A DNA stretch of 35,008 nt from a virus, in the IMG/VR virus record IMGVR_UViG_3300040751_000710, positions 1-35,008 of that record. One strand, given 5' to 3'. The position numbers were made by a program, and so were the translations under genes. Of the stretch, positions 1,725 to 33,011 are shown piece by piece (within the stretch, counting starts at the first letter, position 1; every line of letters begins with the position of its first letter). Under the pieces are notes generated by a model. That model searched no databases and was not told the DNA's origin. It worked only from the letters and a program-made list of their open reading frames with translations.

Positions 1725-1752
1725 AAAATAGTGCCGACAAAGATTTTGTCAA
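1725..1752 (-). promoter_or_regulatory. sigma70-like promoter TTGACA-16-TATTTT
   Basis: A perfect -35 TTGACA (1752-1747), a 16-base spacer and -10 TATTTT (1730-1725) lie in the gap after the glycan operon and about 38 bases before the 54-aa gene. It would start a separate transcript for the small genes down to the terminator at 1186-1213. Confidence 0.6.
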
Positions 1753-1805
1753 CACTTGTATATATAATTAGTCAGTATTGCTGTCCTAATAGTCTCGATT
1801 CAGTA

Positions 1806-2786
1806 CTATTTAAGTTTCATAAACGTACCGATGTCCGAAGCATTGTAACAAATTTTACCGAAGTACCAATTATAAAATTTCGCATATAAATCGACCATAA
1901 TTTTTTTATTAATTTTTTGAATTTTATTGTAAGTTTCATGTAAATCTGTTACACGGCCCTTGATTACGGCGTCATTGTACTCTGCGTTACCGAATCTAAC
2001 CACTGGCACTTCATGTGTCATTGCTTCGATGCCTGTGCCAGAGTTGATCACATAAACTGCCTCAAGATTTTCTTGTGACATAATGTGATGAATGTTTGCA
2101 TTGTCAACCCAGATCACCTTATTACGACCTGATGCAATCTTCTTTAGTGGCTCCATACTGCCTGGGTTGACAGGATGTCCTTTGAACACAACAGCATGAT
2201 CATATCTATCTGACCAAGCACAAAGGCTTTCTACCAGTTCATCACACTTAACTCTACTGTGCCACTTGATAGTCTCATCGTGTGGTATCTGTAAAGGACA
2301 GAAGATAAATGGCTCAGAACAATGAAACGTGTTATCGTTTGGCTGTTCAAATTTGCTTTCACCACGATTCATACGCTCTTTGAATTGGTTGAAGATATCT
2401 CTATCTGCATATTGATCTGTATCAAAGTCTTCGCCAACGAATGAGCCACCACCAGCCCAGCCTTGATGATCAATCGTAAACATCCATGGTACAACTGTCT
2501 GCATGTAATATAAACAATTGTCACCACCTTGAAAATTGTGCTTCTCAACATGAGGAATATATGCAACGTCAGGACTGTATCTATCTACGAGTGAAACATC
2601 AAACATCCATCGTTGTGCTTCTATAAGAACAACCTTATCGCCCATACGCTCGTGGTGCGCTTTCAATGTATCTACAAACTTAGACCACCAGACACGAATG
2701 GGTGGCAGATTTGGATTAGAAATCTCTAACCCAAACTTCTTGAATGGCATATCCAAACGTGGTTTTAATATCAATATTCTTCTCAT
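1806..2786 (-). CDS. KpsC/KpsS-like capsule glycosyltransferase
   Basis: 326 aa from the ATG at 2786, whose ATGA overlaps the stop of the upstream glycosyltransferase gene. Motifs match the 'Capsule_synth' family (PF05159): PLQIPHD at about residues 164-170, FKGHP at 201-205, and NSGTGIEAMTHEVPVV from 248. Bacterial KpsC and KpsS are retaining beta-Kdo transferases that build the lipid-linked Kdo stem of group 2 capsules, acting at the cytoplasmic face. Whether this copy uses CMP-Kdo is inference, but the phage also carries kdsA (27560-28321). It is the last gene of the glycan operon. The C-terminus is Lys/Tyr-rich and may be membrane-peripheral. Confidence 0.75.
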   Translation of the reverse strand: MRRILILKPRLDMPFKKFGLEISNPNLPPIRVWWSKFVDTLKAHHERMGDKVVLIEAQRWMFDVSLVDRYSPDVAYIPHVEKHNFQGGDNCLYYMQTVVPWMFTIDHQGWAGGGSFVGEDFDTDQYADRDIFNQFKERMNRGESKFEQPNDNTFHCSEPFIFCPLQIPHDETIKWHSRVKCDELVESLCAWSDRYDHAVVFKGHPVNPGSMEPLKKIASGRNKVIWVDNANIHHIMSQENLEAVYVINSGTGIEAMTHEVPVVRFGNAEYNDAVIKGRVTDLHETYNKIQKINKKIMVDLYAKFYNWYFGKICYNASDIGTFMKLK

Positions 2787-3520
2787 GCCCAACACCTTTG
2801 AGTCGCAGTCGGCAAGCGATTGAACTCTTTCTTTTTCATAACATATACAGGATTTTCGTACTTACGAGGACCTTTGCCAGTCCAGATAGTCGTACCTTCT
2901 TTGAACTCCCAGTCCATAAAGTCAGGACCAAACTTTCTTACTTGGCTGTCATCAACCCTAGCAAAAGATTGTGATAAAGCGACTTGATCTAAGAACCATT
3001 GCCATGGCCCCTCACCAATGCGTTGTGCTACTGCTTTGGCAAGGTCAACTGCACGATGATCCATGTAAACAGCACCAGCGGCGACTTTTGTACCTTGTGC
3101 TTCCCATCCCACAGTGCCAGCAAGTGGCTCTCTTGGAAAGTAACCAGCAGGCTCTTCAGGCCAATCAAAGTCTTTCATCATCAGTCCATCAACATCTACA
3201 GTCAACACCTTTTGAGCGTGTGGTAGAATTAGTGGCAGTACTAAAAACCGCAAACATGAATAGTATGTGCGTTGACCTCTGCCCATGTTCTCTTTATCAT
3301 TGTAAGAGAATGTCACCTTTACATCCGTATCTGTTGCTAGAATATTAGCGATGTTATATGCATCTTGGTCTGCTTCAGTGATATGGATGTGAATGTCTTT
3401 ACCAATATCGTTTGACGAATATACCAGAGATGGTGCGTGTTCTTTGAAATAATGATTATCGCAAGCCGCAAACACCACAGGATGTGTGGGAATCTCGCCA
3501 TAAATTTTTACTTCACTCAT
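2783..3520 (-). CDS. GT8-like glycosyltransferase
   Basis: 245 aa. An N-terminal nucleotide-binding start (HPVVFAACDNHYF) leads to the metal-binding DxD motif in KVLTVDVDGLMMKD (Asp109/Asp111), as in GT-A fold enzymes of the GT8 or general nucleotide-diphospho-sugar transferase type. Later, AGAVYMDHRAV and WFLDQVALSQ match the conserved acceptor-side pattern of such enzymes. Acceptor and sugar are unknown. It overlaps both neighbours by an ATGA, so it is translationally coupled with a second DxD transferase upstream and the KpsC-like enzyme downstream. Confidence 0.75.
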   Translation of the reverse strand: MSEVKIYGEIPTHPVVFAACDNHYFKEHAPSLVYSSNDIGKDIHIHITEADQDAYNIANILATDTDVKVTFSYNDKENMGRGQRTYYSCLRFLVLPLILPHAQKVLTVDVDGLMMKDFDWPEEPAGYFPREPLAGTVGWEAQGTKVAAGAVYMDHRAVDLAKAVAQRIGEGPWQWFLDQVALSQSFARVDDSQVRKFGPDFMDWEFKEGTTIWTGKGPRKYENPVYVMKKKEFNRLPTATQRCWA

Positions 3521-4245
3521 TTACCAATGATCCCATAATTCACACCACGATTGACAGCATAATCCTCAAGTTTGTAGCCAGCATCTAGTGCCGCTTGATA
3601 TGCATCGTGAAATACATCTACTAGATCAGGTCGTGGATGATTTTGTGCTTCACCAGTAAACCATGCCGGGGCCCAAGGTTGTGTTGGCATGTGTGTATAG
3701 TGCAACTGCCAAATTTCATCTGTATCACCATCGTGACTGTTCCAACGAGGGTCAAGCCAACCAACTAGATTCTGCTTAATGAACAACTCAATGTACTGAT
3801 GATGGGCTGTGACAATATCTTTCCACTGTTCAACAGGAGCAATACGACCATTAAACTTAGCACAATCAAAAAGAATTACACAGAACTCTTTGCCACCAAA
3901 ACGCTTACCATCTCTAGCAAGCATCATCTTATCATCAGGAATGCTCAAGTCCATCAATTCGCCAATATCACGCATATTGATCATATCACAATCTGTGTAG
4001 ATTGCTTTACCCTCAAAACCACACGCTTCTGGAATACCCCAACGATATCCACTAAATGGCGTTGACCAATTCATATCATTCCAACCATGCCAGAATGAAT
4101 CTGGGTCAGTTGTCTGACGCATCCATGTGATCTGAACTTCTCTATCAGTGTTACTTCTCAGTGAATGTTCGTATGCCATTTCAATCTTGGCATCTTCACC
4201 ATTGGATGACGTACCGATAAAAATTCTAACTGGATCAGAACTCAT
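3517..4245 (-). CDS. DxD-type glycosyltransferase
   Basis: 242 aa. Opens VRIFIGTSSNGEDAKIEMAYEHSL, a pattern of GT-A transferases similar to GT8, with the DxD motif in AIYTDCDMINM (Asp85/Asp87). The start is the ATG at 4245 with GAGGAG about 9 bases upstream; the frame extends only to a TTG at 4251. It overlaps the end of the sulfotransferase gene by 11 bases and the next transferase by 4. It is a distant relative of the following gene rather than a duplicate. Substrate unknown. Confidence 0.7.
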   Translation of the reverse strand: MSSDPVRIFIGTSSNGEDAKIEMAYEHSLRSNTDREVQITWMRQTTDPDSFWHGWNDMNWSTPFSGYRWGIPEACGFEGKAIYTDCDMINMRDIGELMDLSIPDDKMMLARDGKRFGGKEFCVILFDCAKFNGRIAPVEQWKDIVTAHHQYIELFIKQNLVGWLDPRWNSHDGDTDEIWQLHYTHMPTQPWAPAWFTGEAQNHPRPDLVDVFHDAYQAALDAGYKLEDYAVNRGVNYGIIGK

Positions 4246-4813
4246 ATCCAAACTCCTCTATCTCGTTCTTAAATATCTCAGACACAAGAGCCTTTGTTGT
4301 ATCTGTATGTAAATCTCTATAATCTTTTACTTTGCGTGTATTAGATTTCAATTTAGTATTGTACACTTCATTCATTCTAATGTCAAGTGAAAAGTGATAT
4401 CTCATGTACAAATACATTTCCTCCATCTCTTCATACTTAAACACTCTGTCTGCATTGCGGTAGAATGACCAGTCTTCAGGCAGAAGATTGCACGATTTGA
4501 TGTATGTTTCAAAATCCATTCCACCGAATATGTGTGGTTTGATATGTTGATGCCAGTAGTAACTACTTACCACTTTATCATATGGATTTCTTTCGATGGA
4601 GAACACAAAATAATCGTCTGGATATTCTGCGGGAGATGGTACTCTATGACCGTTTGTATCTGCTGGACAGTTTAGTGGTGGGGTATCATCTCTCGTTGAG
4701 CCAGTGCAGAAGTCATCTTCACCAAGCAGTGGCCTTAGCACCTTCTCTAGTGTTGACCCTGCCGTCTTGCGTGTTTTAATAAATACAAATTTCTTTGAGT
4801 GTGAGATAATCAT
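4235..4813 (-). CDS. sulfotransferase family protein
   Basis: 192 aa. KFVFIKTRKTAGSTLEKVL near the N-terminus is the 5'-phosphosulfate-binding loop of PAPS-dependent sulfotransferases. FSIERNPYDKVVSSYYW (Arg75, Ser83) is the 3'-phosphate-binding segment. The length suits the short family-2-like enzymes that sulfate glycans. The sulfate donor would be host-made PAPS, since no PAPS synthesis gene is visible here. It starts with an ATGA overlap after the methyltransferase gene. The context suggests the acceptor is a sugar built by the neighbouring transferases. Confidence 0.8.
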   Translation of the reverse strand: MIISHSKKFVFIKTRKTAGSTLEKVLRPLLGEDDFCTGSTRDDTPPLNCPADTNGHRVPSPAEYPDDYFVFSIERNPYDKVVSSYYWHQHIKPHIFGGMDFETYIKSCNLLPEDWSFYRNADRVFKYEEMEEMYLYMRYHFSLDIRMNEVYNTKLKSNTRKVKDYRDLHTDTTKALVSEIFKNEIEEFGYEF

Positions 4814-5511
4814 TTTTCTACTATCACCGTTCCTGATTGATGCACATCCCTTAATAGGGGTCTAACTTTTCTTCGTTTCTTAGTGAGCCAATCGTTCAAT
4901 GCTTTAAACTCGCCTTGTTCCCATGCCTCATATGTATTAAGCATGTGGTGCGTCTGTGTGTTGGCAAAGTGTAGATGCCAACTGGTCAACTCATCAAAGC
5001 GAATGATTGTTCCTGGTTTGATCAGTTTATTCAAAATCATCAGAGATTCAAATGCGGCCCCGTACTCATCGCAATCAACATGCAAAAATGAAATGTACTG
5101 CTTCGGCCACCTTGATGCTACCCAATCTGGCAGTGTATCTTTGAACCAACCCTCAACGGCTTCAACATTATCCTCAAATACTGCCTCAGCCATCTCATAG
5201 TCTTTGTCTTTGATATTCCAGTCTACACCGACCTGATATACTCTTTCATCACTAAAATGCCAGTTTCGTTCTAGACCCAGAAATGAATCAAATCCCCAAA
5301 ACACTCTGTTACGTTTCTTCTTAGCACAGATATTAATAGTTTCGCCTTTGTACACGCCAAGTTCAACGAATAAAGCATTTTGATCGTCTTTACAATCTTT
5401 CATTATCTGCTCAAGTTGCTTTTCTCTGCAACGCTCAACAGAACCCATTCCTATACCAAATACAAGGCATTTATTGTCTTTTGAAAAATCTGTGATATTA
5501 ATTTTAGGCAT
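4810..5511 (-). CDS. TylF/MycF-like class I SAM methyltransferase
   Basis: 233 aa. NALFVELGVYKGETINICA is the SAM-binding motif I; VFWGFDSFLGLERNW, SFLHVDCDEYGAAFESL and KPGTIIRFDEL are the signature blocks of TylF/MycF-type sugar O-methyltransferases, including the Asp residues that bind metal. Such enzymes methylate sugar hydroxyls in antibiotics and surface glycans. The next upstream gene is a paralog with the same blocks and a similar C-terminal QSGTVIV ending. The pair probably arose by tandem duplication. Target unknown. Confidence 0.8.
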   Translation of the reverse strand: MPKINITDFSKDNKCLVFGIGMGSVERCREKQLEQIMKDCKDDQNALFVELGVYKGETINICAKKKRNRVFWGFDSFLGLERNWHFSDERVYQVGVDWNIKDKDYEMAEAVFEDNVEAVEGWFKDTLPDWVASRWPKQYISFLHVDCDEYGAAFESLMILNKLIKPGTIIRFDELTSWHLHFANTQTHHMLNTYEAWEQGEFKALNDWLTKKRRKVRPLLRDVHQSGTVIVEK

Positions 5512-5518
5512 GATATAC

Positions 5519-6211
5519 CTATTGAGTTACGATAACTGTACCAGATTGAAACCAGTTACGACATAGTGGTACGATCTTTCTGTCGTACTTCTGCATCCAT
5601 TCTTTTGTCGCTTTCCACTCATGGTCTGCCCATGTAGTGTATAGGACCCGTGATAGATCAGACGGAGATGCTTCACTAAATGCATAACGCCAACAGCAGA
5701 TTTCATCAAAGCGAATGATTGTCCCAGGCTTGATGTAATCGTTTAACTCATCAAAGACGGTGACAGCAGAAGAATAAATATCGCTATCAATGTGTAAGTA
5801 AGATATACTCTGATTTTCTGATCTGGGTCGTTCATAACCATCCTCTGCTTGTTCTTTTAGCCATTGTGGGATTGATGTATCAAAGAATCCTTTGACTAAT
5901 GATACGTTTTCAGCAACTTCTGGCATTTCGCCACCCCGATCAAACGCCGCTGTCGTGACTGTCTTTTGACCCATATCCCAATCTTCTGGAAGACCCTCAA
6001 ATGAATCAAAGCCCACAAACTGAAGGTCTTTGCGATGAAGTGCCAAACAGTTAATTGTTGAGCCAGTATGTACACCGAACTCAAGATTCCATCCATCATT
6101 TCTGATAAATGGTGCAAGCCATGCCAACTCTCTGAACCTTACGTCCATCGTGCCTTTATCGCCTCTTATGTATGGAAATTTGTATACTTTTTCAAAGTCG
6201 GAAATCTTCAT
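5519..6211 (-). CDS. TylF/MycF-like class I SAM methyltransferase (paralog)
   Basis: 230 aa from the ATG at 6211, which follows an AAGGG site. It carries WNLEFGVHTGSTINCLA, LQFVGFDSFEGLPEDW, SYLHIDSDIYSSAVTV and KPGTIIRFDEICCW, the same order as its downstream neighbour. Both end FQSGTVIV or HQSGTVIV. The two differ enough to suggest different acceptor sugars or positions. Its start overlaps the end of the GIY-YIG gene by 20 bases, tying it to the same operon. Confidence 0.8.
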   Translation of the reverse strand: MKISDFEKVYKFPYIRGDKGTMDVRFRELAWLAPFIRNDGWNLEFGVHTGSTINCLALHRKDLQFVGFDSFEGLPEDWDMGQKTVTTAAFDRGGEMPEVAENVSLVKGFFDTSIPQWLKEQAEDGYERPRSENQSISYLHIDSDIYSSAVTVFDELNDYIKPGTIIRFDEICCWRYAFSEASPSDLSRVLYTTWADHEWKATKEWMQKYDRKIVPLCRNWFQSGTVIVTQ

Positions 6212-13152: not shown

Positions 13153-13591
13153 TTGTAAACTCCTTAAAAGTTTTCTTTCCTTGCTTAGACACATCGTTTT
13201 TCAAGACTTGCCTTACTTCTTCTACAGCAAAGGTCTTGTTCGATGTTTTGAAGTCTTTCTTACGCATGATAGTTTTAGCAACCAACTCAAGTTCTTGACC
13301 AGATAACTTTAGAACAAAGGGCATGTTAATATCAGTCTGCATATCTTTCATTACTGCTTCGGCATCTGGGCCGAGTTTAGCAATAGGCTTACCAAACTTC
13401 TTGAATACCTGTTTGAATATACGAGTTAGTTCGGCAACTGTGATTTGCTTCTTGTTTCTTTCATCATTCACACGATCAAGAAAATGTCTTGTAAACTCAA
13501 CATCAATACCAACTTTGGCAAACAACTTGTCAGCATATTTTTCAATCTGCGCCAAGTCTTGTCTTGTGATTGTTTTCTCTGTTATATACAT
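13049..13591 (-). CDS. conserved T4-like marine phage protein, function unknown
   Basis: 180 aa from the ATG at 13591 (TAATG overlap with the upstream stop). Blocks such as IDVEFTRHFLDRVNDERNKK, KKFGKPIAKLGPDAEAVMKD and MRKKDFKTSNKTF recur in cyanophage and other marine T4-like genomes, where the protein is found near tail or structural genes. It is Lys-rich and helical, with no transmembrane segment. The last 34 residues overlap the 53-aa membrane gene. Confidence 0.65.
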   Translation of the reverse strand: MYITEKTITRQDLAQIEKYADKLFAKVGIDVEFTRHFLDRVNDERNKKQITVAELTRIFKQVFKKFGKPIAKLGPDAEAVMKDMQTDINMPFVLKLSGQELELVAKTIMRKKDFKTSNKTFAVEEVRQVLKNDVSKQGKKTFKEFTNVKLDENKSKRADIMGWRNAHRTWMPRSVHGTTR

Positions 13592-14898
13592 TATCGTGTA
13601 ATCTCTTCCCAATCCAATGAAGCGAAAACATCTTCAGCATCAGTTGCCGGAGCAATCAAAAACGAAAGTGGTTCCCTAACACCAGCAAATGAATCTCTCT
13701 CTAACTGAAACTTGAATAGCGCCTCTTTTAGAATATTCATCGTGGGAGAACCTTGATTAGAGGAATTTAAATACCCCTGTGCAAGAACTCTACCACCACC
13801 ATCATGTGCAGTTCCAGATATGGTGTATTCGACTGAAGAATCGGCACCGGCACTTGTCCAAGCAGATGTTGTTACCACCCCGCCCGCAACAACTCTCCAT
13901 GAGAAGTTTACACCATTACCAACCCCCAATAGAGACAATGCAGTCAAAATAACAATTGCATCCTCTCGGCCAGATTTCAGTCTAATAGAAACTACAGGAT
14001 AATATGTTCCGGCAGTGGTCAGATCGTATGCATCTGTAATTGGTGTTCCAACAGCGTGTTGTCTACCTCTTAGTTCATATCCACCTTCAGCGATAACACT
14101 GCTACAAATTTGTTTTGCCTGACTTGCACCAGAAGTTGCACCAGTGTTTGTAATTTCTTGTCTTAATGGCAAAGATGCAGTTGTCATGTATGTGGAATCA
14201 ATTTCATTTGCATGATGGAATACATGACACACAATAAACTGTCCATTGACTACAAACCCAAAACGCACACTACCAGCACCAAGCCACTCAAAGTCAAACC
14301 ACATAAGTTGAACCTTAGTCAAATCTAAAGTCACTCCACTGGGCCCAGTGCCATCTAATGGGTCAACATTCCAGTTTGCCTTTGCAATTTTTGTATCAAC
14401 TACACTACCAGTTACTTTACTTCGCAATACCACTGATACATCGCTATCGTCTTGTTCTAAGAAGATACCATTTTCAGAACCAAAATAACCAACTCGCTGT
14501 CTAAGATTAGTTTTTGATGTAGCAAATAAAAAACTTGAAAGAATCAATAGACTTTTGCCGGGTTGATATGAAAATGTCTTATTAGATTCTCTTAGAATTT
14601 CATCACCAGAACTTGAACCAACATCTAACTCAATAAGTCCTTCATCACCGTTAAATGTCGATGATGCTGTTCCTGTTGTGTCCTCTGCAAAGAGTCCGTT
14701 GTCAGCGTATCTATGACTACTATCAAACAAAGTAAGTGGTTGTGAGACTCTCATTCTACCAAAAGAATCAGAAGATGTGTTTAGATTGCCCGCATTAACA
14801 TATGTTGAGGGGCCAGCCTGACCAGCAACCATAACAACTTCATAGATTGTTTTGTTGCCAGGAAGAAATTCGCTAGTGTCTGTTCTGAATTGCGCCAT
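13591..14898 (-). CDS. virion structural protein, tail/fibre-like
   Basis: 435 aa from the ATG at 14898. Starts MAQFRTDTSEFLPGNKTIYE. Rich in Ser, Thr, Gly and beta-forming residues, with SFGRMRVSQPLTLFDSSHRY near residue 45, a block I associate with structural proteins of marine T4-like phages. No catalytic motif is visible. Likely part of a tail, baseplate or fibre assembly. The frame runs 69 bases further upstream but only through the end of the preceding gene, so the later ATG is chosen. Confidence 0.65.
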   Translation of the reverse strand: MAQFRTDTSEFLPGNKTIYEVVMVAGQAGPSTYVNAGNLNTSSDSFGRMRVSQPLTLFDSSHRYADNGLFAEDTTGTASSTFNGDEGLIELDVGSSSGDEILRESNKTFSYQPGKSLLILSSFLFATSKTNLRQRVGYFGSENGIFLEQDDSDVSVVLRSKVTGSVVDTKIAKANWNVDPLDGTGPSGVTLDLTKVQLMWFDFEWLGAGSVRFGFVVNGQFIVCHVFHHANEIDSTYMTTASLPLRQEITNTGATSGASQAKQICSSVIAEGGYELRGRQHAVGTPITDAYDLTTAGTYYPVVSIRLKSGREDAIVILTALSLLGVGNGVNFSWRVVAGGVVTTSAWTSAGADSSVEYTISGTAHDGGGRVLAQGYLNSSNQGSPTMNILKEALFKFQLERDSFAGVREPLSFLIAPATDAEDVFASLDWEEITR

Positions 14899-14899
14899 T

Positions 14900-15478
14900 T
14901 TACAATCCCATTCTCTTACGCATCTCTTCTTTCTTAGCAATCTCTTCACGCTTTGCTCTACGCTCAAGATATGCTTTGAGATATGCTTTCATTTCTTTTT
15001 TACGGCCATCCTTTTCGACAACCTTCTTCTTTTTCTTGACTACAACAGTGTCGGCATCATCGCCTGTACCCACTACACCAGCAGTTGATGTTGTCGGCGC
15101 ATCTTCAAGTAGGCTCTTCAGTGTCTTCTTGTCATGTTTCGCAAGGTAGTCCATGTTCTCCTCCAACGCTTGCATGATTTCTTCGTCTGTATAATGCTCT
15201 TTTGGGTTTGCGCTTTCTTTGATCAAAAATAAGGCAGCACCATATGATGCAAGTTTTGATTTACCGCCAGGAAGTCTTTCGACAATTTTTTTGATGTTGA
15301 ATATGAGGCGATTGAAAGTAGAAAATGCAAGTTCTTCTTTGGCATTCTCTGGATCTTTAATCTTTTTACCACGCTCATCAATAATACCTAGTTTGAACGC
15401 ATCCGTTTCATCAAATGGCGTTACGAGCCTCTTGATGAAATTGTATGCTAGTAATAGGTCTCCAAATTTACTGGCCAT
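14900..15478 (-). CDS. conserved phage structural-type protein
   Basis: 192 aa. The first 110 residues form a helical domain (FGDLLLAYNFIKRLVTPFDE..., LPGGKSKLASYGAALFLIKE) that I recall from marine T4-like virion proteins. The rest is a low-complexity linker followed by a strongly basic coiled coil (Lys/Arg/Glu). Ends 2 bases before the start of the next gene. It overlaps the upstream gene by 11 bases. Probably structural; exact role unknown. Confidence 0.6.
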   Translation of the reverse strand: MASKFGDLLLAYNFIKRLVTPFDETDAFKLGIIDERGKKIKDPENAKEELAFSTFNRLIFNIKKIVERLPGGKSKLASYGAALFLIKESANPKEHYTDEEIMQALEENMDYLAKHDKKTLKSLLEDAPTTSTAGVVGTGDDADTVVVKKKKKVVEKDGRKKEMKAYLKAYLERRAKREEIAKKEEMRKRMGL

Positions 15479-17767: not shown

Positions 17768-18247
17768 TTATTTGAGTATCCGTTTTAATTCGGATATTGT
17801 TTTGCTAGTATTTATATGCGTGACAGCCTGTCCGCCAGCCTTCTTAAACTCACTGGTATTTTTACCGTGGTCATCTACGAGGATGCTATCTGCATCAGCG
17901 TAATTCTGTTTGTCTTCTCTGCGAACAAGATGTATCTTGGCAGGCTTCTGCTTTAGATTCTTAGCGATCCAAACTCTCTTGCCTCTTTTGCAAGATGGAT
18001 CCCATGAAGCATATGCAGACAAGATCATCACCTCAGCACCTTCGATACTGGTCAAATAGTTCCACAAATCTTTGCCGCCGGGAGCCCAATCAAGATTATC
18101 CCAAAAACCTTTAGTAGCCACAATCATGGCTTTCTTTTCGTCTTTGGTATATTTTCCATCTTTTTTTGGAAACGGCTCTCCTGCAACCTTCTCAGCACCT
18201 TTAAGAAAGTCACAGAGAACCATGTCCATATCGCAGTATATTTTCAT
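17768..18247 (-). CDS. HAD-family 5'(3')-deoxyribonucleotidase-like phosphatase
   Basis: 159 aa. The catalytic motif is DMDMVLCDF (nucleophile Asp6, acid/base Asp8). VMILSAYAS serves as motif II, a Lys-rich stretch as motif III and SILVDDHGKN (Asp-Asp) as motif IV. The closest pattern is the NT5C/deoxyribonucleotidase group, which dephosphorylates dNMPs. In a phage it could balance dNTP pools with RNR and ThyX. It lies among structural genes, which is odd for a nucleotide enzyme, but its coding region also holds a late promoter box. Confidence 0.8.
   Translation of the reverse strand: MKIYCDMDMVLCDFLKGAEKVAGEPFPKKDGKYTKDEKKAMIVATKGFWDNLDWAPGGKDLWNYLTSIEGAEVMILSAYASWDPSCKRGKRVWIAKNLKQKPAKIHLVRREDKQNYADADSILVDDHGKNTSEFKKAGGQAVTHINTSKTISELKRILK
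17809..17816 (-). promoter_or_regulatory. T4-like late promoter box TATAAATA
   Basis: Exact TATAAATA on the minus strand, inside the end of the HAD gene and about 59 bases upstream of the structural gene starting at 17750. The same octamer appears before three other late units here, supporting the call. Confidence 0.6.
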
Positions 18248-27197: not shown

Positions 27198-27563
27198 TTA
27201 TCGTCTTTTTCCAGTATTTTCATCTTTTTGTTCGGCCGCACTTAATACGACCAGACCACCTTTGTTATATGCTTGACCAATTACAACATTACCACGATAT
27301 TTATGTGGTTCTTTGACGAAGCCATTACCAACTTTATCTGATGTTGGAATGGCAGAGGAGCAAGGAATTGAACCCTGTCTTACGGGGTTGGAGTCCGTTG
27401 TGCTACCGTAACACCTCTCCTCTTTAGGAACATACCCCATCTTCTTCAAATATTTCTGATGCTCTGCTTGAGCAACTTTCAACTTTGCGCTGGTCTTCTT
27501 TGCCTTGCGCTTTTTCTGATTCGTTGTGGTGTAAAACACCGGCAACATATGCATACCACTCAT
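27198..27563 (-). CDS. basic hypothetical protein whose frame contains a tRNA gene
   Basis: 121 aa. The first 45 residues are very basic (NQKKRKAKKTSAKLKVAQAE...), and the C-terminal half starts IPTSDKVGNGFVKEPHKYRG and ends ...AAEQKDENTGKRR. Both ends look like a conserved small marine phage protein. Residues 47-72 are encoded by the tRNA-Trp gene on the same strand, without a stop or frameshift. The start overlaps kdsA by ATGA. Either the tRNA landed in a variable linker of a real protein, or the frame is open by chance. Function unknown. Confidence 0.55.
   Translation of the reverse strand: MSGMHMLPVFYTTTNQKKRKAKKTSAKLKVAQAEHQKYLKKMGYVPKEERCYGSTTDSNPVRQGSIPCSSAIPTSDKVGNGFVKEPHKYRGNVVIGQAYNKGGLVVLSAAEQKDENTGKRR
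27350..27423 (-). tRNA. tRNA-Trp (anticodon CCA)
   Basis: 74 nt. Acceptor AGAGGAG/CTCCTCT perfect, discriminator G, CCA encoded at 27352-27350. D stem GTGT/GCAC. Loop CTCCAAC gives CCA, with one A-C mismatch at the top of the anticodon stem (31-39). T arm CAGGG/CCTTG with a G-U. Lies wholly inside the 27198-27563 frame and far from the main tRNA cluster. Confidence 0.88.
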
Positions 27564-28321
27564 AATATATGCCTCGCTATCTGACTTACTACATTCTCAA
27601 AATCCATCAGTCTGACCATATTAGGCCCATCTGATGGTGCATTGTCTGGGTCTGGATGAACTTCAATAAAAAAGTTTTTCACGCCCATTGCGGCACCTGC
27701 TCTTGCTAGTCCCGGGACAAAATCTCTGTTACCACCTGAAGATCCGCCATTGCCGCCGGGCTTCTGGACTGCATGAGTAACATCAAAGACGATATCATGG
27801 TCAATGTTATTAAGCATATAATCAAGGCCTGTGAAATCAACGACCAGAGTGTTATATCCAAAACTGGTACCTCTCTCTGTGACCCAAACTTCTTTGGCGC
27901 CTTCTGTCTTAGTCAGAACACCATGCATATCCCACGGTGCTAGAAACTGACCCTTCTTAATATTTACAATCTTATCGGTCTTCGATGCGGCGACTACTAG
28001 ATCGGTCTGCCTGCAAAGAAAAGCGGGTATCTGTATTACATCAATATAATCTAGTTCACTAATAATTTGAACTTGTTCGACAGTATGTACATCGGTCAAA
28101 GTCTGGACATCATATGCATTCTTGATAAAACTGAATGCGGTCATGGTTTCATTGAAGCCGATGCCTCGTTTACCACTCATGCTAGAGCGATTGGCTTTAT
28201 CAAAACTAGCCTTGAAGATATATTCAAAGCCATATTTATCACAAACCCGTTTACACTCTTCAGCGATAATTGAAGATGATACTGCATTTTCGTGTTGGCA
28301 TGGTCCTGCTATAATTCTCAT
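27560..28321 (-). CDS. kdsA: 3-deoxy-8-phosphooctulonate (Kdo-8-phosphate) synthase
   Basis: 253 aa. Condenses phosphoenolpyruvate with arabinose 5-phosphate to Kdo-8-P, the committed step to the Kdo of lipopolysaccharide and some capsules. Nearly every family block is present: IFKASFDKANRSS, LTDVHTVEQ, PAFLCRQTDL, VNIKKGQF, FDVTHAVQ, LARAGAAMG, FIEVHPDPDNAPSDGPN. GPC near the start (Cys8) with the later His, Glu and Asp marks the metal-dependent class, unlike the Asn of E. coli KdsA. Slightly shorter than bacterial forms (about 270-285). ATGA-overlapped with both neighbours. The phage may boost or redirect Kdo supply. Confidence 0.95.
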   Translation of the reverse strand: MRIIAGPCQHENAVSSSIIAEECKRVCDKYGFEYIFKASFDKANRSSMSGKRGIGFNETMTAFSFIKNAYDVQTLTDVHTVEQVQIISELDYIDVIQIPAFLCRQTDLVVAASKTDKIVNIKKGQFLAPWDMHGVLTKTEGAKEVWVTERGTSFGYNTLVVDFTGLDYMLNNIDHDIVFDVTHAVQKPGGNGGSSGGNRDFVPGLARAGAAMGVKNFFIEVHPDPDNAPSDGPNMVRLMDFENVVSQIARHIL

Positions 28322-29255: not shown

Positions 29256-30599
29256 TTACAATAATTCTTTATATTGGTCGATTGACATGCTACCCATTTT
29301 AGAATTATGGTCTGCCGAGATCATAGCCAGATTTTCATAAGTCGTCTTTCCACCCTCTGAATGCGCTACGATATGGCCGCCTTGCGCCGTCTTCATAGTC
29401 AACTTTTCACCAGATACGGCACACTTGAAGTCCTGTTCAATAAGTTTTGCTTCACGCCACTCACGGGGAAAGAGTCTTTGTGGATCCTTTAATGTTACAA
29501 GATCAAGCATGTTCACACGATTCAGCATCCACATCAGAGTTTCAAATATCGCTTCTTTTGAACGATGCTCACCCAATGTATCTTTGAATTGTTGACCTCG
29601 TGTTTTATTACTGTCAAATGGTGAAGTTTGTTGTAGTTCTTTAGGCTGCCTATCTAGAGGCAACGTGAAAGGTTGCAACGCTTTTGCAATAGCACAATAA
29701 AACTCATCAATATCGTTGATCTTAAAGGATCCGTACTCCTCTTCCATATACATCCAGATACGAGTGAATAGAGAAAACTCTTTCTGATTCAGACCTTGTG
29801 TTTGATACCGTTTGCGGACCTCAGAAATATCAAGAAGAAAATTTAAGCACTTATTTACCTTTTCAGTAATTTTTTCCACCTCATCAGAATTTGCTTCTGA
29901 TTGATACATATATTCTAAATTCTTATCATCAGCGGAACCAAGCCCACCACCATCATAATAACGATAGAATATGCGAGCCACAATTTGATCAATTTTAAGG
30001 CGCTTATTGTCAAACTGAATATTCAAAAAGTTCTTTGGTTTGCCATCACGCTGGCTAAACTCAAATAGATTATGAAATTTGTTATTCACACCATGTACTG
30101 GTCGTACAGTATTTCTAACTGCATTGGCGATAGGAATATTGCCATATGAATTAAGCATCTCTTGATGATTGACATCAGTGGTTTTATTGAGAGACCGAAA
30201 GATATGGCCAATATCCCAAACATTCATGCCCTTGCTATAAATGACAAATGACAATTCAGTGTTCAGAAAATGATCTTTCTCTTCCTTAGATAGATCCCGA
30301 TAAAACTTACCATTTACCCGAAACTTATTTTCAAAATATGATTTAATATACCGCTTTCGGTGACCGCCATCAATACTCTCATAGACATAATCACCGTCAT
30401 TAACTTCATGCACGGTAATCTGGCCCAAATCTATTCCTATTAAAATAGAATTGATTATACCTTGAGCCTTTGTCTCACGGCTACCAGATTCAAAGGATGT
30501 TTCAGTATCAAGTCTCTGGCCTACCGGCTGACAATCAATCTCACCATAACGCAAAATAAACTCTTTGATGGTCATGGATGTTTTAGTGTAACTGTACAT
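29256..30599 (-). CDS. DUF262-HNH nuclease
   Basis: 447 aa. An N-terminal DUF262-like (ParB/Srx-fold) domain is marked by CQPVGQRLDT near residue 23 and the nucleotide-site variant SIDGGHRKRY (77-84, normally DGQQR). A helical middle follows. The C-terminal HNH domain (about 395-447) runs FKCAVSGEKL, GGHIVAHSEGGKTTYENLAMISADHNSKMGS. The architecture resembles GmrSD-type modification-dependent and other NTP-stimulated restriction enzymes. A phage may use it against rival phages or host DNA. The first zinc-type Cys pair is incomplete, so metal binding may differ. GGAAAT precedes the ATG. Confidence 0.75.
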   Translation of the reverse strand: MYSYTKTSMTIKEFILRYGEIDCQPVGQRLDTETSFESGSRETKAQGIINSILIGIDLGQITVHEVNDGDYVYESIDGGHRKRYIKSYFENKFRVNGKFYRDLSKEEKDHFLNTELSFVIYSKGMNVWDIGHIFRSLNKTTDVNHQEMLNSYGNIPIANAVRNTVRPVHGVNNKFHNLFEFSQRDGKPKNFLNIQFDNKRLKIDQIVARIFYRYYDGGGLGSADDKNLEYMYQSEANSDEVEKITEKVNKCLNFLLDISEVRKRYQTQGLNQKEFSLFTRIWMYMEEEYGSFKINDIDEFYCAIAKALQPFTLPLDRQPKELQQTSPFDSNKTRGQQFKDTLGEHRSKEAIFETLMWMLNRVNMLDLVTLKDPQRLFPREWREAKLIEQDFKCAVSGEKLTMKTAQGGHIVAHSEGGKTTYENLAMISADHNSKMGSMSIDQYKELL

Positions 30600-32080: not shown

Positions 32081-32818
32081 TTATCTCCAACAATATACAA
32101 TATTAACCCACGCTCCCTTAGTTTCTTTTCTTGCTTCCACATTAGGGAAATGACTGTGCATCAAGTCCAAGATTTCATTATACTTGGTGTGATGTGGAAT
32201 ATCATTCAAGTGAGCATGATGGAATTCAAATATCAATTGTTGTATATTATCATAATTTTTAAGGGCTTTCAATGCTTCATATTCACCACCTTCGATATCC
32301 ATCTTGACGATAGAAGGATTTACTGTGTCAATAACTTCATTGATATTGACACAATTAACTGTAGTAGTGTCACGACCACGCTTGGCAATAAGTGAATGTG
32401 CGCCCTTGTTCTTCTTAAGGTTGATAGAGAAGTAACGCTCTTTGTCATCGTTGCCAACAACAGCGAGATTATTCAAATACGCTCTATCTGCAACACCATT
32501 CAACTCTACATTCATCTTAGCAAGTTCAAAGTTCTCCTCTTCTGCTTCATATGAATGAACTTCTTTTGCACCACGCTTCAACGCATATGATGTAAACATA
32601 CCAATATTAAGACCAAAGTCAATGATAACATCGTCTGAAGTAATGTTCAGTTTACGATATTCGCCGGACGATACTTCACGCAACACGAATGGATCAGATG
32701 TTTCGGGACGAACATATGCTTTCAAGTCTTTATGTTCATGGAGTTCAAGTTCTGTGTATGTTTCTTCTTCTAAGAATTTTGTCAAATCACCTGCATATGC
32801 CACATTTCTAATCTTCAT
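32081..32818 (-). CDS. FkbM-family SAM methyltransferase
   Basis: 245 aa from the ATG at 32818 (a GTG six bases earlier is possible). VIIDFGLNIGMFTSYALKRG is the SAM-binding motif I, EVHSYEAEEENF the acidic motif, and PSIVKMDIEGGEYEALKAL the FkbM signature. The family O-methylates sugars and polyketides and is common in surface-glycan loci. It overlaps the preceding small gene by 11 bases and sits away from the main glycan operon (1806-6834), beside the helicase gene. Target unknown. Confidence 0.8.
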   Translation of the reverse strand: MKIRNVAYAGDLTKFLEEETYTELELHEHKDLKAYVRPETSDPFVLREVSSGEYRKLNITSDDVIIDFGLNIGMFTSYALKRGAKEVHSYEAEEENFELAKMNVELNGVADRAYLNNLAVVGNDDKERYFSINLKKNKGAHSLIAKRGRDTTTVNCVNINEVIDTVNPSIVKMDIEGGEYEALKALKNYDNIQQLIFEFHHAHLNDIPHHTKYNEILDLMHSHFPNVEARKETKGAWVNIVYCWR

Positions 32819-33011
32819 CTTCACTTACTTCCTTTTTCTCCACATATAGTTGCTTGGGGCACCAGTAAATAGGGTCTGTATAAACTATCTCCGGCTTCTT
32901 TGTATTCTGACATTTGTACACACACATTCTTTCTTTATCATCACTATCTTTGTCAATATTTTGAGAAACCAGATTACAAGATATTGCGGCGGCTATTGCT
33001 ATTTCGATCAT
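32808..33011 (-). CDS. small Cys-containing protein (67 aa)
   Basis: MIEIAIAAAISCNLVSQNID, then KERMCVYKCQNTKKP and DPIYWCPKQLY, with four Cys in all. The hydrophobic first 12 residues could be a short signal or lipobox-like segment, though they lack the usual basic start. The acidic tail overlaps the FkbM gene. ATGA overlap with the end of the helicase gene. Function unknown. Confidence 0.55.
   Translation of the reverse strand: MIEIAIAAAISCNLVSQNIDKDSDDKERMCVYKCQNTKKPEIVYTDPIYWCPKQLYVEKKEVSEDED

Follow-up and report, generated by a model that had tools for sequence, protein, structure and literature searches.

Virus record IMGVR_UViG_3300040751_000710, analysed here over all of its 35,008 bases (the window, to which all position numbers refer), is a piece of a marine T4-like phage genome, as judged from a helicase that shares 59-66% identity with its counterparts in T4-like myophages (e.g. 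Methylophilales phage Melnitz and Synechococcus phages), a virion structural protein (13591-14967; 58.7% identity with its homologue in cyanophage S-RIM12) and a class II ribonucleotide reductase whose nearest relative is that of Puniceispirillum phage HMO-2011 (66%). Between positions 1806 and 6211 it carries a single minus-strand run of six genes for the assembly and decoration of a glycan, hereafter the island. All six open reading frames (ORFs) listed in an earlier annotation of this DNA (the original prediction) were found intact, and Pfam matches, DxD signatures and other motifs bore out its two DxD glycosyltransferases, its 3′-phosphoadenosine-5′-phosphosulfate (PAPS)-type sulfotransferase and its KpsC/S-like enzyme. 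The island, its flanking features and a distant gene concerned with 3-deoxy-D-manno-octulosonic acid (Kdo) are as follows.

1730-1756, minus strand: terminator-like hairpin downstream of CapS (pattern match only)
1806-2786, minus strand: CapS, KpsC/S-like enzyme, from an ATG start; the ORF opens upstream at GTG 2795 (329-residue ORF)
2783-3520, minus strand: GTa, GT-A fold glycosyltransferase (GT8/GT6/glycogenin-like), by its DXD motif, its fold and its fusion to CapS in 13 relatives
3517-4245, minus strand: GTb, GT8-like glycosyltransferase, from an ATG start, by AlphaFold, Foldseek and weak Pfam matches in homologues
4235-4813, minus strand: ST, PAPS-type sulfotransferase (decorator), by PF03567 and PAPS motifs
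4810-5511, minus strand: MT1, TylF-like O-methyltransferase, lineage-specific, by PF05711
5519-6211, minus strand: MT2, TylF/Methyltransf_24 sugar O-methyltransferase (decorator), by PF13578
6192-6647, minus strand: SegE-type GIY-YIG endonuclease gene (PF19835, 9.4e-45), the left border of the island
27560-28321, minus strand: KdsA (Kdo-8-phosphate synthase), the probable Kdo supplier, by TIGR01362 and phmmer

Four-base ATGA overlaps join MT1 to ST, GTb to GTa and GTa to CapS, so that the overlapping architecture ascribed to the run holds at these three of its five internal junctions and, as an 11-bp overlap, at ST/GTb, but not at MT2/MT1, where a 7-bp spacer intervenes. None of the five genes shared with relatives has an internal stop, and their ratios of nonsynonymous to synonymous substitution rates (dN/dS) of approximately 0.1-0.2 indicate maintenance by purifying selection. 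A strong hydrophobic segment of the membrane-protein type is absent from every island product, and thus no Gtr-type flippase or membrane glycosyltransferase is among them. The set had been called complete, which goes too far, as the six-gene run contains no gene for nucleotide-sugar synthesis, a flippase or an exporter; a Pfam search together with the membrane-segment check also detected no KpsM/KpsT exporter (group 2 capsule system) in the island. Comparison of the whole region with GenBank phages by blastn gave no match, and tblastn found no relatives of GTb, CapS or ST among them. A relative of GTa occurs there only in Ochrobactrum phage POI1126, where it is distant and lies amid virion genes.

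Scanning IMG/VR with six single proteins (CapS and the products of the other five island genes) yielded some 55 distinct island contigs, among which near-duplicates (e.g. L013/L014, L016/L017 and L019/L020) mean that the counts are not fully independent. GTb precedes GTa in all 46 contigs that hold GTa, and CapS follows GTa or is fused to it in all 43 that are long enough. GTb-GTa-CapS is therefore a conserved three-enzyme core in marine T4-like phages. The claim that the genes travel as a block stands for this core but not for the remainder: across the 46 GTa loci MT2 occurs in 18, ST in 21 and both in 17, and MT1 is confined to the window's lineage. Independent variation or inactive remnants had been named as grounds for giving up the idea of a glycan assembly-and-decoration block; instead, the core stayed together in every testable relative, with invariant neighbours, purifying selection and motifs of functional enzymes. 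In other contigs the slot of the decorators is taken by other methyltransferases, a Bax1-I-type membrane protein, a 2OG-Fe oxygenase, radical-SAM proteins or a cupin of the mannose-phosphate-isomerase type. Inserts of the radical SAM/2OG-Fe oxygenase kind were located at L048:6247-7206 (radical SAM with a SPASM domain), L051:3057-3680 and L016:2908-3516, and loci L029-L036 carry an insert of ~2-3 kb between GTb and GTa with small cupredoxin-like and DoxX-like proteins (assigned by eye from the sequence). With the exception of L022, every contig that extends past the island's left edge has a SegE-like GIY-YIG gene there, which may aid the movement or exchange of island cargo.

The bond between GTa and CapS is closer still in 13 contigs, where they form a single protein of ~550-580 residues, collinear with the separate proteins of the window. 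Distant bacterial GTa-CapS homologues are likewise fused, and a tree with these as outgroup requires three changes between fused and split forms. The simplest reading of this phylogeny is an ancestral GTa-CapS fusion that would have come apart in two lineages, one of them the window's.

CapS matches the Pfam family Capsule_synth (PF05159, 3.2e-11), and the motifs QXXXD (Q169..D173) and KXHP (K205-H207-P208; both in the 329-residue numbering from GTG) are invariant in all 26 CapS sequences. In KpsC, WbbB and KrkA, which are retaining β-Kdo transferases, the corresponding QXXXD and (K/R)XHP motifs carry the catalytic nucleophile and bind cytidine monophosphate (CMP) (PMC10148158, PMC12887879). 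A profile built from CapS matched KpsC structures in hmmsearch, and the AlphaFold model (mean predicted local distance difference test score, pLDDT, 92) found its best Protein Data Bank matches by Foldseek in KpsC (6mgd, 8fuw and 6mgc; GT-B-like fold), with template modelling (TM) scores of 0.54-0.60 normalised on the KpsC module. E59 and H82, likewise invariant in the CapS alignment, are possible candidates for the general-base Glu and the leaving-group His of these transferases. With 33.8 bits against a cut-off of 600, CapS falls below the curated KpsS equivalog NF050054. Together, motifs and predicted fold indicate that CapS is probably a retaining β-Kdo transferase of the GT-B type, for which Kdo would be a well-supported donor.

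Neither GTa nor GTb has a direct Pfam match, including to Glyco_transf_8 (PF01501), and we therefore call them GT8-like and not GT8. The DXD motif is invariant in all 26 GTa sequences and its GTb counterpart in all 30; the AlphaFold model of GTa (pLDDT 92) matches LgtC, GlyE and glycogenin in fold, and that of GTb (pLDDT 93.7) matches GlyE, LgtC and LARGE1 by Foldseek. Weak PF01501 matches were obtained for 24 of the 30 GTb homologues (best 2.6e-6). Both proteins are thus modelled as GT-A fold enzymes with a DXD motif.

The remaining three products are decorators. ST matches Sulfotransfer_2 (PF03567; 2.2e-7, 31.7 bits against a cut-off of 22) and conserves the PAPS-binding motifs K13-T14-R-K16..G19 and R75-N76-P77..S83. 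MT1 exceeds the TylF cut-off (PF05711; 2.5e-10, 40.5 bits against 23), and MT2 matches Methyltransf_24 (PF13578, 2.8e-9) with a TylF score of 19.1, under that cut-off; profiles of these enzymes match the sugar O-methyltransferases CalS11, MycE and NovP. Their description as two TylF-like paralogs is loose, since the pair, at 38% identity, is not a recent duplication. In the IMG/VR scan MT1 had relatives solely in the near-identical contigs L002 and L009. Among GenBank phages, MT2 is related only to the glycosyltransferase-annotated gp108-type proteins of Che8-like mycobacteriophages, the similarity covering part of Che8 gp108. The methyltransferase and sulfotransferase genes are swappable decorators, with MT1 private to the window's lineage.

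A connection to Kdo, which the original prediction had missed, is made not only by the CapS motifs but also by KdsA, which scored 322.3 bits against the equivalog TIGR01362 (cut-off 314) and matched the solved KdsA 3fs2 with 2.4e-80 in phmmer. KdsA was found in five of 22 other island records, including both of the longest (146 and 157 kb), most of the others being short fragments. Window KdsA groups with that of non-island marine phages lacking CapS (support 96/100), and those of G002 and of G005/G006 share just 41-52% identity with it. Gene sites and neighbourhoods of KdsA also differ among these phages; a common site in the window and G002-G004 was considered and rejected, the gene neighbours in G002 marking a different one. 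Grouping, divergence and location together suggest that island phages acquired KdsA separately at least twice and probably three times, although the approximately unbiased (AU) test (p=0.116) did not reject one common clade outright. A search of the island contigs with PF02348 found no CMP-Kdo synthetase (KdsB), so that formation of CMP-Kdo would depend on the host; a KdsB-type gene was present in 10 of 17 other KdsA records searched. Both kdsA and kdsB have already been reported as marine viral genes (PMC5332604, PMC10653327). Relatives of window KdsA, 67-74% identical, were seen in at least 80 IMG/VR contigs, one of them 100% identical. In three island phages a cupin gene, possibly for a sugar isomerase and absent from the window, adjoins KdsA (L163:7214-7585, L166:9792-10328 and L164:9812-10402). 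The small window ORF beside KdsA (27198-27563) was rejected as that cupin; it overlaps a tRNA-Trp gene (27350-27423, minus strand) and is probably not a gene.

Scanning 84,980 bacterial and archaeal genomes for the CapS motifs recovered three relatives. The same kind of scan with GTa motifs found none, which is not proof of absence because the GTa-bearing L148 turned up in the CapS-motif scan. L148, from a Pseudomonadales metagenome-assembled genome (MAG), is the closest bacterial copy (L148:4757-10093), comprising GTb, a fused GTa-CapS (GTa 48%, CapS 45% identity) and two methyltransferases, and was the only close copy in ~1,150 proteobacterial genomes searched. It is embedded in a flagellar cluster, for which Pfam confirmed fliD-fliS-fleQ on the upstream side and, downstream, fliF and the gene of a FleR-type regulator; fleS, fliE and fliH were assigned from sequence and position only. 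Its neighbour is a 601-residue protein with an N-terminal TPR domain, of the size and layout of FlmG, a flagellin O-glycosyltransferase (PMC7591256). The C-terminal half of this protein gave no significant match to solved structures, and 'FlmG-like' thus refers to size, TPR domain and location. The base composition of the L148 stretch is similar to that of its flanks. The L148 fusion nests within the phage clade, a separate phage clade being rejected (AU test, p=0.0005), which suggests a probable phage-to-bacterium transfer of a fused GT8-like/β-Kdo-type enzyme into this flagellar locus.

From the computed gene content, motifs, fold, fusion, conservation, KdsA and bacterial context we infer a soluble, cytosolic phage module that would build a Kdo-containing glycan, most likely on a protein of the virion; we put the probability of this reading at about 0.43. 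GTb and GTa would add one or two sugars, and CapS, as the split half of a formerly fused GTa-CapS enzyme, would then add a β-linked Kdo or Kdo-like residue by the double-displacement mechanism of KpsC and WbbB. Phage KdsA would boost the Kdo supply, with the host providing KdsB, and MT1/MT2 and ST would finally cap it with O-methyl and sulfate groups, which vary by phage lineage; here 'it' is the glycan chain. By analogy with flagellin O-glycosylation, the acceptor could be a tube, capsid or fibre protein made in the infected cell, and the benefit could lie in changed adsorption, particle protection or hiding. A more daring version, which we regard as rather unlikely, has marine T4-like phages coating their own particles with an O-linked Kdo glycan, methylated and sulfated according to lineage and boosted by KdsA, with a bacterium later taking the fused enzyme for flagellin glycosylation.

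A protein acceptor is favoured because the closest bacterial copy lies in a flagellar cluster beside the FlmG-like protein; the kinship of MT2 with the gp108-type proteins of Che8-like phages, whose capsids bear glycans, and the setting of the POI1126 relative of GTa amid virion genes also speak for this reading. Several observations weigh against it. The flagellar context comes from one bacterial genome, a MAG, whose TPR protein the phages lack; CapS, at ~15% identity, is too distant from KpsC to prove the donor; and KdsA is absent from the sequenced part of the closest long relative (G001, 72 kb), so that its link to the island is supportive and not obligatory. Furthermore, no exact T4-type late promoter accompanies the island, whose genes carry on from the nrdJ/primase run; the only exact copies of TATAAATA in the window are at 17809, 22398, 24447 and 24924, and four matches are not above chance. 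The more distant GTa-CapS fusions (28%; L158, with a sulfotransferase, and L159, with a methyltransferase) are accompanied by ABC-type polysaccharide exporters and GTb-like genes, and CapS-only homologues (L149) adjoin genes of the capsule-export type. Because of these ABC-transporter polysaccharide loci, a glycan of the host envelope is nearly as likely an acceptor: by the same chemistry, a lipopolysaccharide (LPS) core, O-antigen or capsule would be extended, or given a methylated/sulfated cap that contains Kdo, on the cytosolic side of the inner membrane, so that superinfecting phages could not adsorb or released virions would avoid debris. GT8 and β-Kdo transferases classically make LPS and capsule, and the lack of a late promoter suits this alternative too. 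LPS genes, kdsA among them, have been described from marine phages and interpreted in this way (PMC7029224, PMC5332604, PMC10653327). The run nevertheless holds no flippase, polymerase, exporter or membrane segment, although host machinery could serve, and the bacterial copy nearest to it occupies a flagellar cluster, not an envelope locus. The two acceptors are therefore close together, with protein slightly ahead.

Two further explanations fare much worse. Phage DNA, also among the targets originally proposed, would be glycosylated through a hydroxymethylated base in the style of T4, and T4-like phages do include DNA glycosylators; this we consider extremely improbable, as nine island records, the 146- and 157-kb ones included, contain no PF00303 (thymidylate synthase/dCMP hydroxymethylase) gene, the fold searches gave GT8-type and KpsC-type enzymes, and neither sulfation nor Kdo transfer has a counterpart on DNA that we are aware of. 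Alternatively, unrelated 'moron' genes might have gathered at a hotspot with no joint pathway, as the coming and going of decorators and of Bax1-I, radical SAM, 2OG-Fe and DoxX-like genes beside a border-marking GIY-YIG gene would suggest. Constant core order, the 13 fusions and purifying selection on all shared genes contradict this for the core and make it very unlikely overall, but MT1, FkbM and other cargo may be genes of this kind.

The proposed Kdo module resembles several known systems in part. CapS shares QXXXD, KXHP and a predicted GT-B-like fold with KpsC (GT107), WbbB (GT99) and KrkA (GT140), but is a single, phage-borne module of low identity (~15%), fused or adjacent to a GT8-like enzyme and with no capsule exporter. 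Flagellin O-glycosylation islands (Caulobacter FlmG; Maf) are similarly cytosolic and independent of a lipid carrier, and it is in a flagellar cluster with an FlmG-like TPR protein that the nearest bacterial GTb, GTa-CapS and methyltransferases lie; the phage island has no TPR or Maf initiator. Maf enzymes can use Kdo in test systems. Virion glycosylation in mycobacteriophage Che8 and its kin involves a short block of phage glycosyltransferase genes with an MT2-related methyltransferase domain, and Che8 capsids carry glycans according to PMC11256854, which cites Freeman 2023; hosts and phage type differ, however, and GTb, CapS and ST lack GenBank phage relatives, GTa having only that of POI1126. 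Cyano- and pelagimyophages are also T4-like marine phages with GT8 and Kdo/LPS genes, but those reports concern mixed glycosyltransferases, many in host-recognition regions, whereas here a fixed core with a β-Kdo-type transferase lies by the nrdJ/primase run. Gtr O-antigen conversion operons likewise bring phage glycosyltransferase genes that may alter the host surface, yet the island has no GtrA flippase, GtrB or membrane-bound Gtr enzyme.

These results would give a so far anonymous, 'LPS-like' cluster of phage genes a definite sugar, Kdo, and a testable enzyme, and they document a conserved core with swappable decorators for a phage glycan module. Should the virion be the acceptor, sulfated Kdo glycans would be new phage-particle chemistry, of which we know no other example; if it is the host, the module would represent a sugar-capping strategy and help to account for the presence of kdsA among marine viral genes. 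The flagellar-locus enzyme nested in the phage clade suggests phage transfer into a bacterial glycosylation locus.

The FkbM methyltransferase (32081-32824, minus strand), originally thought to belong with the block, is not part of it: it lies 26 kb away, is absent from eight of nine island records searched and is syntenic in none. In G001 FkbM is missing from the corresponding place, as are KdsA, MT1 and the ORF at 29256-30599, so that the window's lineage has probably gained several genes.

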